Shown here in pieces: positions 22,249-37,921 of a stretch of DNA of 37,921 nt. A model generated the notes under the pieces. It saw only the letters and a list, made by a program, of their open reading frames with translations, searched no databases and had not been told where the DNA came from. A program made the position numbers and the translations under genes. Origin of the DNA: Ureaplasma sp. Hg1 (GTDB taxonomy: Bacteria; Bacillota_I; Bacilli_A; Mycoplasmatales; Mycoplasmoidaceae); assembly GCA_021378535.1 (NCBI GenBank), contig JAACJV010000009.1:1-37921 (forward strand), given 5' to 3'. How positions within the stretch are numbered: the first letter of the stretch is position 1; every line of letters begins with the position of its first letter.

Positions 22249-23499
22249 ATGGGTGCAGGCACATATATTAGAAGAAATTCACCAATCCATAAATTAAACC
22301 CTTCGTTAAAATTTATTGCATATATTTTATTTATTGTATTGGTATTTTTACCTATCGGTTTTTTTGGTCAAACAATTTTATTTGCTGTTATATTAATAGT
22401 ATATGTAATGGCTAAATTACCCCGAAAAGCATTGCGGGAAATATTTAAATCGGTGGCAATTTTATTTATTTTATTATTTATTATAAATTGGGTAACATAT
22501 AAGGATCCGATTGCTATTTATCATTATGCAGATAGTGACAATGCTTTTATTGGTTCGTCCAGTTGGATTAATGGGCCTATTTGAAAAGGTTCAGGTAGTG
22601 TTTCAGATAATTTAGTTTCAAATATTTGGGGTGGTTCTATTTCTGGTTATGACGCGCAATGAATTAATGCTCATAATACAGTTTTAACTGATGTTTGAAA
22701 ACACAATGGGGGTTCAATTAATAGAACTTGAAATAGTATTTCCAGCGATGCTAGAAATCAGGTAAAAACATTTGTAGATGCTCAACATTTTGTTGGAGCA
22801 GATAGTAATACAGCTAAAACTTACTACTACATGATTACAAATGGATTTTCATTTGATGGTGTTCAATACTCTGCTTTTAGTTTACATGGGACAAGTAGTG
22901 TTAATATTGCTGCTAATCAAGTTATTTTTTATCAAGCTAATTGATATACGCTTAGCCCTCAAGCAATTGTTTTGGCTCTTTATATCACAACTAAAATTGC
23001 TATGATGATTATATTAACTGAAATTTTAACATCAACAACATCATCAATTGAGTTAACATATGCACTTGAAGATATATTAAGTCCATTAAGAATACTAAAG
23101 TTACCAGTAAATGAAGGTGCAATGATGATTTCGATTGCGCTTCGATTTGTACCCTCGTTATTAGATGAATCAAAACGTATTTTAAATGCACAAGCATCAC
23201 GAGGGGTAGACTTTAAAAACGGCGGTTTTAAAGAAAAAACCCACTCCCTAATTTCGTTAATCGTACCGTTATTTTCAATTGCTTTTAAAAAAGCGGAGGA
23301 TTTGGCAAATGCAATGGAGGCACGAGCTTATAATCCAAGATATGCTAGAAGTAGATATCGTAAATATAATTTGAAACTCACAGATTGATTAGGTTTCTTT
23401 ATGGTTTCGATAGTTTGTGGATTCTTGATATCAATTTCAATATTTCATGTATTCTTCACGGCCTATGGTATTTTTGAAGCTTCCCTAATTTTTGCATAA
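22249..23499 (+). CDS. ecfT: Energy-coupling factor transporter transmembrane protein EcfT with large insertion
   Basis: EcfT links the two ATPases to the S component. The N-terminal membrane helices (about 20-86) and the C-terminal half from about residue 235 are typical, including the coupling-helix motifs QASRGVDF and MEARAYNPR that contact EcfA. Usual length is about 265; this protein has 416. About 145 extra residues (roughly 88-232), rich in Ser, Asn, Gly and Trp and almost free of Lys, lie between membrane helices. Seven or more TGA codons occur, several in the insertion, so the standard code would shatter it. The composition suggests an extracellular domain, by inference. Confidence 0.9.
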
Positions 23500-31917: not shown

Positions 31918-32337
31918 TTGTTACGTGATAATTTTTTCAATGATTTAATCATAGTATATCTTTCCATTACCGGACTTATTATTTTTATATGTTTGATAAT
32001 GGGATGAATAGATGATTCATTGTGGCAATATTTATATGCAACAATCCTAACAGCACCGTTTGTCGTTTTAGCTAAGTTCATTAATTGCTCGATTCCAGAG
32101 TACATTAAAAAATTAGCTAAGAAAAGAACAAAACGCGTCAAAGCCACAATAATATTATCATTTGTCAATATTTTAAATAATTTTATTTATATTGTGCCAA
32201 TGGTTATAGGTTTTGTCGTTAATTATTATTATCACAATGTTTTTAATATTTACATGTTATGTGGCTTTTTACTTTTAAGCATTACTTGTATATCTATATA
32301 TAGTATGGTTTGAGTGAAAAAAAATACTAAAGACTAA
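31918..32337 (+). CDS. AtpI-like membrane protein, first gene of the ATP synthase operon
   Basis: An in-frame TAG at 31903 limits the start. The best is TTG at 31918, with GGGGTG about 5 nt upstream; an internal ATG at 31999 is possible but would remove the first helix. The 139-aa protein has four hydrophobic segments (about 10-30, 35-55, 75-100, 105-125) with a basic stretch between the second and third pairs (KKLAKKRTKRVKA). It has TGA Trp codons at 32005 and 32311. Sequence similarity to AtpI cannot be proven by eye, but position upstream of atpB, size and topology fit. AtpI assists c-ring assembly in other bacteria. Confidence 0.7.
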
Positions 32338-32364: not shown

Positions 32365-33198
32365 ATGGATGCATACAATCCTTTAACACTTGAATACGGT
32401 GCAATCCCGCAAATAACCTCTATTATAATTTTAACAATTGTCATAGGAATTATTTGTTTGGTTTACTTTCTTCAAGTGCGAAAGTTAAAACCAGATGATA
32501 CGCCAAAACGTTTCACACTAATTATGGACGCTTTTATAGCAGCATGTCGATCATTAGTTGTTGAATCATTAGGTGTAAAATTTGTTAAATTAACACCATA
32601 TTTCATCTTCCTACTTTCCTACCTATGTCTTGGAAATATCGCAATGGTTTTTGGTTTCAAGGAACCAGCAACTGCATCGACAGTTCCGATGACACTAGGT
32701 TTGATTATGTTTATTGGAACTTTTGTAGTGGCGATTAAATATCAAAAACTAAGTTTTGTAAATCAATTTCTTATTAGAGTAAAAATTATGGATCACAAGA
32801 TTCCCGTAATGATTAACCCATTAGAAATTATTGGTAAATTTACACCATTACTTTCAATTACATTCCGGCTATGAGGCAACGTTATGTCTGGATCGATTAT
32901 CTTTGCGGTAATCTTCTGGGCGTTAGGAAGTGTTTCTAACATGTTCCCTGCAATCGGTGTAATTATCGTCGCTGGAACATTCTTGTTACCAGCACTTATG
33001 ATTTACTTTTCGTTATTCGCGGGCTTGATTCAAGCTTTCGTATTTACGTTATTAACAGTAAGTTATTGAGGATTAGAATATCAACATGGTCTTGAGTATG
33101 AAGAAGAAAGAAAATTAGCTAAAGAAAAAAGATTAGCTAAATTAGAATTAAAAAAAGAAAAAAAGTTAAATGCTAATGTTCATTTAGCTAACAATTAA
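32365..33198 (+). CDS. atpB: ATP synthase F0 subunit a
   Basis: The ion-channel subunit. The essential Arg lies in SITFRLWGNVMSG, where the Trp is TGA; the usual Glu after the Gly of this motif is replaced by Ser. Five or six membrane helices are seen, ending with ALMIYFSLFAGLIQAFVFTLLTVSYW. After a TGA Trp at 33067 there is a charged cytosolic tail of about 40 residues (EEERKLAKEKRLAKLE) not usual in the family. The length is 277 aa. A strong AGGAGG sets the start. Confidence 0.95.
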
Positions 33199-33209
33199 GG
33201 AGAAATATT

Positions 33210-33482
33210 ATGGATTTATCATTAATAGCAGCAGTAACTGGCAACATTCAAGTTGCTGGAGCTTACATTGGTGCAGGTTGTGCTATGGTAGCAGCATCTG
33301 GAGTAGGTGCTGGTCAAGGTTATGCAGGTGGTGCCGCAGCTATGGCAATCGCACGTAACCCAGAAGTAGAAGGTAAAATTACTAAAACAATGATCGTAGG
33401 AGCTGCGATGGCTGAGTCATCTGCAATCTACGCATTGATTATTGCGATTTTACTTATCTTCGTTGCACCAGGTATGAATTAA
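33210..33482 (+). CDS. atpE: ATP synthase F0 subunit c, with Na+-type ligand set
   Basis: Forms the rotor ring. At 90 aa, two helices flank the polar loop ARNPEVEGK. The ion-binding carboxylate is E69 in MAESSAIY. Residues at the Na+ ligand positions known from Ilyobacter tartaricus (Q32, E65, S66, Y70) are present here as Q36, E69, S70 and Y74 with the same 33-residue Q-to-E spacing. Proton-only c subunits usually lack the Gln and Ser. Ion choice therefore may be Na+, but this cannot be settled by sequence. The Gly-rich first helix (GAYIGAG, GVGAGQGYAGG) is typical. Confidence 0.96.
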   Translation: MDLSLIAAVTGNIQVAGAYIGAGCAMVAASGVGAGQGYAGGAAAMAIARNPEVEGKITKTMIVGAAMAESSAIYALIIAILLIFVAPGMN

Positions 33483-33516
33483 TAAAATATCAAGAAACAA
33501 CGAAGGAGGTAATCAC

Positions 33517-34143
33517 GTGAAGCAAACTAAAAAAAGATGAATTATTGCAGCCCTTGGGCTAGGTTCATCAATGGCTTTACTTTTGCCTTTAACAAGTTGT
33601 TCGGCTGAAATCGATGGAGTAACATCTAACGAAATTATTAACCAAATCTTTCCAAACGTTTGAGTATTTATTGCTCAAATAATTGCGATGATTATTCTTT
33701 TAAGTTTAATTATTTGACTAGTGTGAAAACCAGCAAACCGTTGAACTGACAAAAGAAAAGAACATCTAATGAGAGAAGTCGAACAAACTAAAAAAGCAAA
33801 AGAAGAAGCATTCTCTAATTTCGAAAAATCGAAAGAAGAACAAATTAGAGCACAAGCACAAGCAATTCATATTGTAAATGCAGCTAATGATGAAGGATAT
33901 AAAATTCGTGAACAATTAGAAATTGAAGCAAAAGCAAATGCGCGACGAATTCAAAATGATGCGAAGGACGAAGCTATTAAACAAGAAGAAAAACTTCGTC
34001 AAGATATGCAAAAGGAAATTATTAATGTAGCTTTTTCTGCAGCAGAAGCATTAATTAAAAAGGAAATTAACAAAAAAGATAACCAAAGACTTGTTGATGA
34101 CTTTATTAAAAATATCGATAAGAATTTAGTCCAACATGACTAG
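33517..34143 (+). CDS. atpF: ATP synthase F0 subunit b, lipoprotein form
   Basis: Starts at GTG 33517, with AAGGAGGT upstream. The N-terminus is a lipoprotein signal: KQTKKR, a hydrophobic core and the lipobox LTSC with Cys28. A membrane helix (about 49-73) follows, then a long charged, helical stalk (about 80-200). Several TGA Trp codons lie in the first 90 residues, so only the stalk is visible under the standard code. Subunit b of Mycoplasma pneumoniae is known to be a lipoprotein. The length is 208 aa. The 3' end overlaps atpH by 8 nt. Confidence 0.95.
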
Positions 34144-34678
34144 ATCAGATATTGCAGAAAATTTTGCACTTGCAATACTTAATATTGCAAAAGAACAAAA
34201 TAAAGTAGATGAATACTTTGTTTGGTTCAAACATATCTTATATGCTTTTAAAGCAAACACAAAAATAGTTGAAATTCTAATGTGTCAAAACATTAGTAAA
34301 GAAGAACGCAAGAAAGTGGTAGATGCTATATTTATTAAGGGCGCACCACAATATTTAATTAATTTTTTCTATTTATTAATAGATAAGAATGTTATTAAAT
34401 ATATAGAACAAATAATGAAAATCTTGGTTCATGAGACAAATGAATATTTAAAGGTTATGTTTTTAGAAATTAGAACAGCATATCCATTGACTGATGTTGA
34501 AACAAAAAAAATTGTTAAAGCAGTTGAGAAACAATATAATAGTAAAGTTGAATATCAAAATATAATTGATCCAACTGTTATCGGCGGGGTAAAACTTAGT
34601 TTTGCTTCAAAGACTGTTGATTCGACTTTACAAGGAAGATTAAAAAATCTTAAAAAAATTAGTGAGAAAGGAAGATAA
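34136..34678 (+). CDS. atpH: ATP synthase F1 subunit delta
   Basis: Links the b stalk to the top of F1. At 180 aa it has family length. The N-terminal helical domain (SDIAENFALAILNIAKEQ) and the C-terminal EIRTAYPLTDVETKKIVK and DPTVIGGVKLSFASKTVDSTLQGRLKNL segments match the delta/OSCP family. It starts inside the end of atpF and ends 3 nt before atpA. Confidence 0.95.
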   Translation: MTRSDIAENFALAILNIAKEQNKVDEYFVWFKHILYAFKANTKIVEILMCQNISKEERKKVVDAIFIKGAPQYLINFFYLLIDKNVIKYIEQIMKILVHETNEYLKVMFLEIRTAYPLTDVETKKIVKAVEKQYNSKVEYQNIIDPTVIGGVKLSFASKTVDSTLQGRLKNLKKISEKGR

Positions 34679-34681
34679 ATT

Positions 34682-36757
34682 ATGGCTATTAAATTAGATG
34701 AATTTTCAACCGTTATACAAAACCAAATTAAAAAATATTCTGACAAGGTATTAACTGCTGAAGAAGGTAAAGTTATCACCATTGGTGATGGAATTGCTAA
34801 AGTAAGTGGTTTGGATAATGCGATGCTTAATGAAATCCTTATTTTTGAAAATGGGACAGAAGGTATGGCACTAAATCTTGAAGAAGATTCAGTTGGTGTT
34901 GTTATGCTTGGAGAATTTGAAGAAATTCAAGAAGGTGACCGAGTTGTTCGTTCAAAACGAATTATGCAAGTTCCTGTAGGGGACGCGCTTTCAGGCCGTG
35001 TCGTTAATGCGATTGGTCAACCAATCGATGGTAAAGGTAAAATTAAAACTGATAAAGCTTTACCAATCGAAAAAGTAGCTCCTGGAGTTATGACTAGAAA
35101 ATCAGTAAACCAACCGTTGGAAACAGGGATGCTAGTAATAGATGCAATGTTCCCAATTGGAAAGGGTCAACGTGAGTTAATCATTGGTGACCGTCAAACT
35201 GGAAAAACAACAGTTGCAATTGATGCTATTATTAATCAAAAAGGAAAAAACGTACGTTGTGTATATGTTGCTGTGGGACAAAAAAATTCAACAGTTGCAA
35301 GTATTGTACGTAATTTAGAAAACTTAGGAGCTATGGCTTATACAACAATTGTATCAGCTACAGCTGCTGACTTACCAGCCCTTAAATATATTGCTCCATT
35401 CGCTGGAGTTACAATGGCTGAATACTGAATGTCAAAGGGAGAAGACGTACTAATCATTTACGATGATTTAAGTAAGCATGCAGTTGCTTATCGAACACTA
35501 TCGTTATTACTTAGACGACCGCCAGGGAGAGAAGCTTATCCTGGGGATGTATTTTATTTACATAGTCGTTTACTTGAACGTGCTTGTCGTTTGAACAAAG
35601 ATAATGGGGGAGGCTCAATTACAGCGCTTCCAATTATCGAAACTCAAGCAGGAGATATCTCGGCTTATATTCCAACTAACGTTATTTCAATTACTGATGG
35701 TCAACTATTTATGATGACACCATTATTCAATGCTGGTCAAAGACCTGCGGTTGATGCTGGTTTATCAGTATCAAGAGTTGGTGGGGATGCTCAAATTAAA
35801 TCAGTTAAACAAGTTGGTTCTAGTCTTAGAATCGAGTTGGCAAGTTATCGTGAATTAGATGCTTTTAGTCAATTTGGTTCAGATTTAGATTCAGCTACTA
35901 AGAAAATTCTTGATCACGGGAAACGGGTAATGGAAATTATCAAACAACCTCAAAATCAACCTTATCATCAAACTGATGAAGCAATTATTTTGTTTACAAT
36001 TAAACATCATATGATTAGCTATATTCCAGTTGAAGATATTTCACGATTTAAATCTGATTTAGTTAAACATTTTAAAGGTTCAAAATTAAGAGAAACACTA
36101 GAAAAAAGTAAAGCATTTAATGATGCCTTAGTATTAGCTTTTAAAGCTGAGCTTAAAAACTTGATTCGTCAATTTCTTAAAGGTGTACCTAACTATTCTT
36201 ATACTAAAGATTTTTCATTAGAAGGATTAGATAATACAGAAGAAGAAAAGAAAGCACTTGAAGCATTTCAAGGTGGAGTTGAAACAATAAAAACTGAAGC
36301 TCCAGTTGCGACTATAGCAACTAAAACCGAAGTTGAAACAAAGCAAGAAACAACAGATGTATCAAAAACACCTGAAGCGCCTCAAGCAGTAAATGTTAAA
36401 ACCGTTATTATCGATTTTAATGCAACTGAAATTCAAAATGTATTTACTAAATCTAAAAAAGCTTTAATAATTAAAGATTTTAAAGATAAAGAAGTTAAGA
36501 AAATTCTTTTCTTCAGTAAAAAAGACAAAACTATTATTGGTGAAGTAAATGTTAAGGAATTAGTTTCTGGACCAATTACGACTGTTTATAATAAAGTTAA
36601 AGATGAATTAAATTTACCGAAAGATAAATTTACCGAAAAATTTAGTGGTTCTAAAACAGCTCACGTTTTCTTAATTGACGAAGTAAAGAAATTTGATTCG
36701 CCTAAAACATTAGCTGACTACAACCTAACAGCTATTAAAGGACCAACTTATTTATAA
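34682..36757 (+). CDS. atpA: ATP synthase F1 subunit alpha fused to a C-terminal extra domain
   Basis: Residues 1 to about 500 are a complete alpha subunit: Walker A GDRQTGKT (169-176), W249 from [28 protein letters not shown], and the arginine finger R365 in SVSRVGGD. The family ends around 502-525; this protein has 691. The extra part is a Glu/Thr/Lys/Pro-rich linker (about 505-570) and then a compact region of about 120 residues (about 572-691) with alternating strands and helices: [56 protein letters not shown], and an end GPTYL. This layout resembles ASCH/PUA-like RNA-binding folds, but the assignment is tentative. No stop or frameshift separates the parts. Confidence 0.93.
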
Positions 36758-36774
36758 GTTGTGATTAAAACACA

Positions 36775-37365
36775 ATGTTAAAAGTAAAAAACTTAAGTAA
36801 AAAACGCAAGATTCAATTATCAATATTAGTAGTTTATTCAATAATTTGTTTAGCAATGCTAATATATGCGATTGTTGGTTTAGCGTGAATATCTAAAGAA
36901 TATGCAAATGAATATAATTGATTGAACGATCAAATAAACGCTCACCCAGGTGATGCTTATTGAACGACAGTAAATAAGAACATTCAACCTGACACGTGAA
37001 TATTGGTTAAGCTTGCAAATGGTCATCAATATATGTATGAACATGCAATATATCTTACTAATCATGCTAGCTGGGTTGCAGCAGGTAAGACTGGTGCAGA
37101 ACCTAAAGATTGAGTTCAAAATTACTCATCAACCTATTCAGGTTATATGTGAGGCAATGCTTTCGGGTGATTAATGTTAGTTCCACTAATATTATGATTA
37201 ATAGTTGGTCTATTATTAAAATATAGACCAAGACCAGAACCATCAGTTAAGTTGGAAAAGAAAATACTTAAGGAACATAAAAAGGCTGAAAAACTAGCAG
37301 CTAGAAAAGCTAAGAAATTAGGTGGGGCTTCTGCCCAAACTAATGTGAAGGGAATGGGTGCTTAA
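36775..37365 (+). CDS. Unrecognised two-helix membrane protein between atpA and atpG
   Basis: Opens only if UGA is Trp: eight of its nine tryptophans are TGA, so a standard-code search sees nothing here. The 196-aa protein has a basic N-terminus, membrane helix 1 (about 14-38), a loop of about 90 residues (39-127) rich in Trp, Tyr, Asn and His, helix 2 (about 128-150), and a Lys/Ala-rich tail (151-196). The positive-inside pattern places the loop outside the cell. It lies 17 nt after atpA and 2 nt before atpG. The Shine-Dalgarno is poor, which suggests coupling. Normally atpG follows atpA directly. I do not recognise the family; a role tied to the ATP synthase is inferred only from position. 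Confidence 0.8.
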
Positions 37366-37367
37366 AG

Positions 37368-37921
37368 ATGTCTTTAGAAGCAATCAAAAGAAAAATATCA
37401 TCTGTTCAAACAACTGCTAAAATTACAAAGGCAATGCATTTAGTAGCATCGTCAAAATTAAGAAAACAAAAAAAATTATATTTGGATATTCAAGATTATT
37501 ATCAAGAATATTACAATGTTGTAGGATATTTATTATCAATTTGTGGAGATGTTGAATTCTTGAAAGTTAAAGAAGCTAAAGATTCAAGGTTATATATTGT
37601 CATTAACTCAACAATGGGTTTATGTGGATCATATAATGCGAATGTTAGCAAATTAGCTTATTCATTAGTTAGACCTCAAGATAAAATAATTGTTATCGGA
37701 CGTCGTGGAGTAGATTTTTGAAAAACTAAAAAAATGGGTGATCAAATTATCAATACTTATAACTTCAACGATAATGAATTCGATTATGATGTATGTGCTC
37801 GTTTAGGAGCAGATATCCTTAAATTATATAAAAGCGGAGAAATTAATGAAATTAAAATGTTATATACTAAATTTGTTAATGCATTAACTTTCACTGCAAC
37901 CAAAATGGATGTTATCCCTTT
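37368..37921 (+). CDS. atpG: ATP synthase F1 subunit gamma (3' truncated by window end)
   Basis: Central rotor shaft. The N-terminus SLEAIKRKISSVQTTAKITKAMHLVASSKLRK is the family's coiled-coil start, and STMGLCGSYNANVSK is its most conserved internal block. TGA Trp at 37719 (VDFWKTKK) continues the frame to the window end, 184 codons visible. It starts 2 nt after the preceding gene with GGAATGGG upstream. The beta and epsilon subunits should lie just beyond the window. Confidence 0.95.

Follow-up and report, generated by a model that had tools for sequence, protein, structure and literature searches.

The operons of N-type ATPases contain extra genes, atpQ and atpR, that the ordinary F-type operon lacks; they sit before atpB. 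The function of AtpQ, a putative membrane protein, is unknown (PMC5376962), and AtpR has been suggested as an assembly chaperone (PMC4154653). AtpI/UncI (MG406-like in mycoplasmas), a small membrane protein encoded in the atp operon, is a candidate assembly helper, UncI being a chaperone of the c-ring (PMC4154653). Mycoplasma-specific membrane proteins, the X0 proteins, are encoded beside alpha/beta-like genes in the F1-like X0 ATPase (Type 3) and in the Type 2 gliding ATPase. Those with two helices have a mass of ~85-127 kDa, carry a signal peptide and have the helices at the C-terminus; they come from a cluster without b homologues. The MMCAP2_0577-type protein (MSC_0620 / MMOB1650), with its two TM helices, is a possible stator (PMC3369863, PMC12994834). 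In mycobacterial F1, a lineage-specific C-terminal extension of alpha, i.e. a short peptide docking into gamma, alters the behaviour of F1 (PMC8698299).

We analyzed a stretch of 37,921 nucleotides from Ureaplasma sp. Hg1 (hereafter the window), in which a gene for a two-helix membrane protein, referred to as the insert, lies between atpA and atpG. Few gene orders in bacterial operons are as steady as alpha-gamma, and mycoplasmas are wall-less bacteria known for gene loss. Like AtpQ and AtpR the insert is an extra gene of an ATPase operon, but its position is different, it has no Pfam match above cut-off and its predicted external loop is large. It resembles AtpI/UncI as a small atp-operon membrane protein but occupies another position, and a separate AtpI-like ORF is found at the operon head. 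It is also not an X0 protein of the Type 2/3 F1-like clusters. This is ruled out by its size and topology (a 196-aa hairpin with a central loop), by its location in a genuine Type 1 operon (alpha belongs to TIGR00962) and by the lack of an NCBIfam match. AtpQ/AtpR and the X0 proteins are therefore precedents, matching the insert in neither position, size nor sequence. No report of an insertion between atpA and atpG was found among open-licence papers.

Results

The insert gene and its operon

Read with genetic code 4, the end of the window carries atpB-E-F-H-A, the insert and atpG in this order:

31930..32337, + strand, AtpI-like ORF at the operon head, with a weak MG406-family match below cut-off (NF033688, E 1.9e-5)
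32365..34678, + strand, atpB, atpE, atpF and atpH in standard order (32365-33198; 33210-33482; about 33517-34143; 34136-34678), identity read from the sequences
34682..36190, + strand, atpA core (residues 1-503), an ordinary F1 alpha (TIGR00962, E 1e-236)
36191..36379, + strand, atpA linker (residues 504-566), fast evolving
36380..36754, + strand, atpA C-terminal ASCH (PUA-superfamily) domain (residues 567-691), matching ZmASCH in sequence and fold
36775..37365, + strand, insert gene at the atpA/atpG junction, 196-aa two-helix membrane protein, stop codon included
36823..36879, + strand, TM1 of the insert (residues 17-35), within residues 1-40, over which two species share 98% identity (dN/dS 0.03)
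36895..37122, + strand, divergent predicted external loop (residues 41-116), with an identity of 38% where other parts of the insert have 76-98%
37162..37218, + strand, TM2 (residues 130-148), containing a Pro common to 13/13 inserts (LMLVPLI)
37219..37362, + strand, predicted cytosolic Lys/Ala-rich tail (residues 149-196), net charge +11
37368..37921, + strand, atpG (gamma), cut by the window end

The insert ORF runs from an ATG to a TAA through 196 codons, i.e. 196 aa, eight of its Trp being encoded by TGA (W38, 49, 63, 75, 113, 126, 132 and 141). The open frame starts at 36769 and the ATG at 36775 is the earliest inside it. Only 17 nt separate it from the end of atpA (36757) and 2 nt from the start of atpG. 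Re-reading the ORF thus agrees with the original prediction of a 196-aa frame with eight UGA codons between the two genes. A chance or mis-called ORF is ruled out by a homologue and by purifying selection (see below). The scan of the atpA-atpG interval for promoters gave promoter-like sites no commoner than in shuffles and none convincing, and no convincing terminator was detected there on the genes' own strand.

The two hydrophobic segments (residues 17-35 and 130-148) are separated by a loop of 94 residues. We applied the positive-inside rule to the charges: because the tail is basic, both ends are predicted to lie inside, giving a hairpin (N-in/C-in) whose large loop faces outwards and whose tail is in the cytosol. 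This predicted topology bears out the earlier description of two helices, an external loop and an inner Lys/Ala tail. The structure model of the insert is poor (pLDDT 58). The label Trp-rich is appropriate for the window species (9 Trp) but is mostly a feature of that species, its relatives having 1-8 Trp. Elsewhere in the window, a protein that by eye resembles the T component of ECF transporters (22249-23499) has a long Trp-rich loop (~residues 85-215) between hydrophobic segments, which recalls that of the insert.

Searches of Pfam and NCBIfam with P0001, P0002 and four further inserts gave sub-threshold matches only. Membership of a known family, including AtpI, AtpQ and AtpR, was rejected on the lack of any profile match above cut-off in these databases. 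A displaced atpI is unlikely as well, an AtpI-like ORF being already present upstream; from this ORF it appears that the ordinary small atp membrane gene is probably present too. Two other observations concern related operons. A second short ORF, like the C-terminal part of delta (atpH), is located between atpH and atpA in genus g11 (L100:4501-4795). Away from its atp operon, genome G011 has another alpha/beta-like pair (G011:C3:77684-79869), perhaps a Type 2/3 F1-like cluster.

Distribution of the insert

The translated insert is present in one copy in the window genome (G000; 1.16 Mb, 42 contigs, 85% complete). A direct search with it, as had been proposed, did find one clear homologue, but in the same genus, and direct similarity ended there. 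This homologue (L003:8001-8582, in G001, the MAG of Ureaplasma sp. Hg2) is 69% identical, with in-frame indels, and has the same place in the operon. Since direct similarity stopped at this point we surveyed the junction position instead, i.e. the atpA-atpG interval throughout the family and, for most other genera of the order, in a single representative (24 outgroup representatives read of 25, from ten other families).

A two-helix insert is found at the junction in all 13 operon-bearing genomes of three genera: g1 (2), g8 (6/6) and g11 (5/5), and in all carriers it is encoded in the atp operon. The junction ORFs of g8 and g11 encode 149-295 aa, with two hydrophobic segments and a Lys-rich tail, and the loop varies from ~59 to 205 residues among the relatives. 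No junction insert was found in 38 genomes of eight other genera, nor in the 24 genus representatives from the ten other families; in both sets alpha and gamma are adjacent or overlapping. G010 and G016 are likewise without an insert at the junction. No readable genus outside these three contradicts the claim that the order alpha-gamma is nearly invariant.

In a phylogeny built from six ribosomal proteins (1004 columns) g1, g8 and g11 form one clade with support 100/100. They are also grouped on a tree of the alpha core (SH-aLRT 96), and on either tree the insert needs one change. As the three carrier genera form one clade, a single gain suffices. Counts of changes on trees cannot separate gain from loss, but gain is the simpler reading because many outgroups are without the insert. 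It was therefore probably gained once and then kept, and this although the alpha cores are only ~64-72% identical between carrier genera.

Five draft genomes of g11 (G029, G066, G073, G082 and G084) have no F-type alpha, beta or gamma, and the ATP synthase therefore seems to have been lost in part of this genus. No convincing insert was detected in these five drafts with g8, g11 and G083 insert queries, a search of low sensitivity. This absence would fit a loss of the insert together with the enzyme; it is weak evidence, because the profiles cross genera unreliably.

Similarity between the inserts

Profiles of inserts were compared across genera with segment-shuffled controls, which keep the composition of each segment. 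For the g1 profile, the score was reached by 0/400 shuffles with G063, 1/400 with G078 and 3/400 with G011; for the g11 profile, by 7/400 with G000 and 4/400 with G001. Some cross-genus pairings are no better than shuffles. The two best matches of the g11 profile outside its own genus are g8 inserts (E 0.006 and 0.03). The g8 profile misses the window's own insert in a genome-wide search, and its results are mostly noise. The hhalign probabilities are 82% for g1-g8 and 0.8% for g1-g11.

The 13 inserts nevertheless have features in common: the predicted topology is alike in all of them, the TM2 proline is present in 13/13, and in most a loop W is preceded by S, T or A. Because the position and the clade add to this marginal similarity, to the TM2 proline and to the loop W, we consider common descent of the 13 inserts likely, though not proven.

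Selection and divergence of the loop

The window insert and its L003 homologue differ very unequally along their length. Residues 1-40 and the TM2 region (residues 117-150; 94% identical, dN/dS 0.14) are under strong purifying selection, and the tail is 76% identical with a dN/dS of 0.34. Over ~240 nt covering the loop, nucleotide identity drops from 93-100% to 37-70% and then recovers.

The loop also shows an excess of synonymous change. Of the codons for identical residues, 12/24 differ within the loop, compared with 21/98 elsewhere in the insert (Fisher p 0.009) and 115/797 in atpA+atpG (Fisher p 6e-5); these figures come from 24 loop codons of a single pair of species, and chance identities where the alignment is poor could contribute to them. 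The excess points to import of the loop by recombination and not to fast amino-acid change alone, and suggests an imported older or foreign allele, as in surface proteins. No donor copy of the loop was seen in the same genome, with the whole insert protein as query and an assembly ~85% complete.

The C-terminal extension of alpha

In the window the insert directly follows an alpha whose 125 C-terminal residues form an ASCH domain (profile E 2e-11; Foldseek fold E 1e-7 to ZmASCH). ZmASCH (5GUQ, 5GUS, 5Y6B, 5Y6C) is like the alpha extension in fold and sequence and so relates to the neighbour of the insert, not to the insert. It is a stand-alone, RNA-binding ribonuclease acting on single-stranded RNA (PMC5615036), whereas the domain of alpha is fused and its nucleic-acid binding only putative. 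The mycobacterial extension and this one are both lineage-specific extensions of alpha, but here a linker joins an ASCH domain to the alpha core, and the insert is independent of this extension.

This independence goes against the original prediction, which linked the insert to the alpha extension and proposed a test of their co-occurrence. The nature of the extension differs between carriers while the insert is constant. An ASCH domain ends alpha in g1 and in most of g11, and a four-Cys module does so in the g8 genomes G033, G063 and G070. In G008 the four-Cys module is on the N-terminus of beta, not on alpha. In G017, G026 and G083 alpha has neither module. In these last four genomes the insert is present with only ~31-82 extra residues on alpha. 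In relatives lacking the extension no homologue was found away from the atp genes; theirs still sit in the operon. Dependence of the insert on the extension is thus ruled out by carriers without an ASCH or Cys module. Because the insert is present in all extension states, the two share a clade and not a dependence, which also weakens the idea that they are in contact.

Both modules occur elsewhere in the family. The ASCH module is also found at the C-termini of ribosomal proteins: L22 (g10, g11), S3 (g10) and apparently S16 (G083). As it is on both alpha and ribosomal proteins, the ATP synthase and the ribosome of g11 bear the same module. The four-Cys (Zn-ribbon-like) module of g8, which has only a weak treble-clef match in Pfam, is also on ribosomal L22 (G063) and on an L23-like protein (G008). 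The loci are:

window 36380-36754; L132, L134-L137, L133, L174, L168, L169: ASCH module
L105, L106, L107: four-Cys module on alpha
L103/L025: four-Cys module on the beta N-terminus
L125, L128: four-Cys module on ribosomal proteins

In the window the ribosomal proteins L22 (7701-8483), L29 (9690-10397) and L23 (6007-6534), assigned by position, have long Lys/Ala/Pro/Thr-rich tails.

Discussion

A real, selected two-helix protein is fixed at the atpA-atpG junction in three genera of one clade. We favour, with about even confidence, a role for it as a clade-specific accessory membrane component of F1Fo (subunit, tether or assembly helper). What argues for this is that the insert is operon-locked throughout its clade (13/13) after one inferred gain, and that the low-sensitivity search did not find it in the five ATPase-less genomes of g11. 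Of the original proposal, the accessory subunit or anchor is favoured on these grounds and the tie to the alpha extension falls. The helices and the cytosolic ends are conserved and the outside is variable; the best fit to this is a component bound to Fo within the membrane, for which the outer loop matters little. Encoded between alpha and gamma, such a component may dock its conserved hairpin beside Fo (a, c or b), its basic tail contacting F1, the stalk or lipid head groups, and act as a tether, a structural subunit or a helper; the extension of alpha would not be needed. The loop would face outward on a wall-less cell, carry little conserved function and so be free for exchange.

The loop is also what speaks against an accessory role, because it evolves like a surface antigen, and this could mean an independent surface function. 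The insert would then be a surface protein (binding or decoy, phage or host contact) inserted once, held in the atp operon for steady expression and making no contact with F1Fo; we regard this as possible but rather unlikely. The contrast of a loop only 38% identical with ends at 98% (residues 1-40) and 94% (residues 117-150), the synonymous excess suggestive of an imported allele and the range of loop lengths among relatives would all be expected of such a protein, and an operon position alone can be retained for expression reasons. But a single junction is kept in 13/13 operon-bearing genomes though the sequence is almost unrecognisable, the hairpin and the tail are conserved, and the insert was not found in the ATPase-less sisters, for what that search is worth. 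A passenger surface protein fits the loop, not the strict position.

We consider it unlikely that the insert helps in the assembly or insertion of F1Fo only transiently, in the manner of AtpI/UncI, and is not resident in the enzyme. A small operon-encoded hairpin with basic ends, as UncI is likewise operon-encoded, would suit this function, but an AtpI-like ORF already stands upstream and an external loop of 60-200 residues is unusual for a chaperone of the AtpI/UncI type. Sequence cannot tell such a factor from a subunit.

Least probable, and to our mind very unlikely, is that g1, g8 and g11 each acquired, by independent insertions, a different small membrane gene at this junction: the loops are not alignable with confidence, profile searches give no g1-g8 link at genome-wide significance and hhalign nearly dismisses g1-g11, but the carriers are monophyletic, none of the 62 outside genomes read has a junction insertion, topology, TM2 Pro and loop W are common to the inserts, and several pairings outscore segment shuffles, with the high g1-g8 hhalign value in addition.

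Within the accessory component that we favour, a more specific picture can be drawn, which we hold to be a doubtful one: the insert would be a resident Fo subunit with a large exchangeable ectodomain outside the wall-less cell, in a clade whose F1 bears ASCH or four-Cys modules that are also on ribosomal proteins, and the remodelled synthase would be part of a larger assembly.

A single insertion of a membrane protein, present throughout a clade of gene-losing organisms, points to an ATP synthase that is not the textbook one. With one gain, 13 carriers and close outgroups without the insert, it offers a clean event in which to see how an ancient machine acquires a new subunit or helper. It also raises the question whether an ATP synthase can show a variable face outside the cell.
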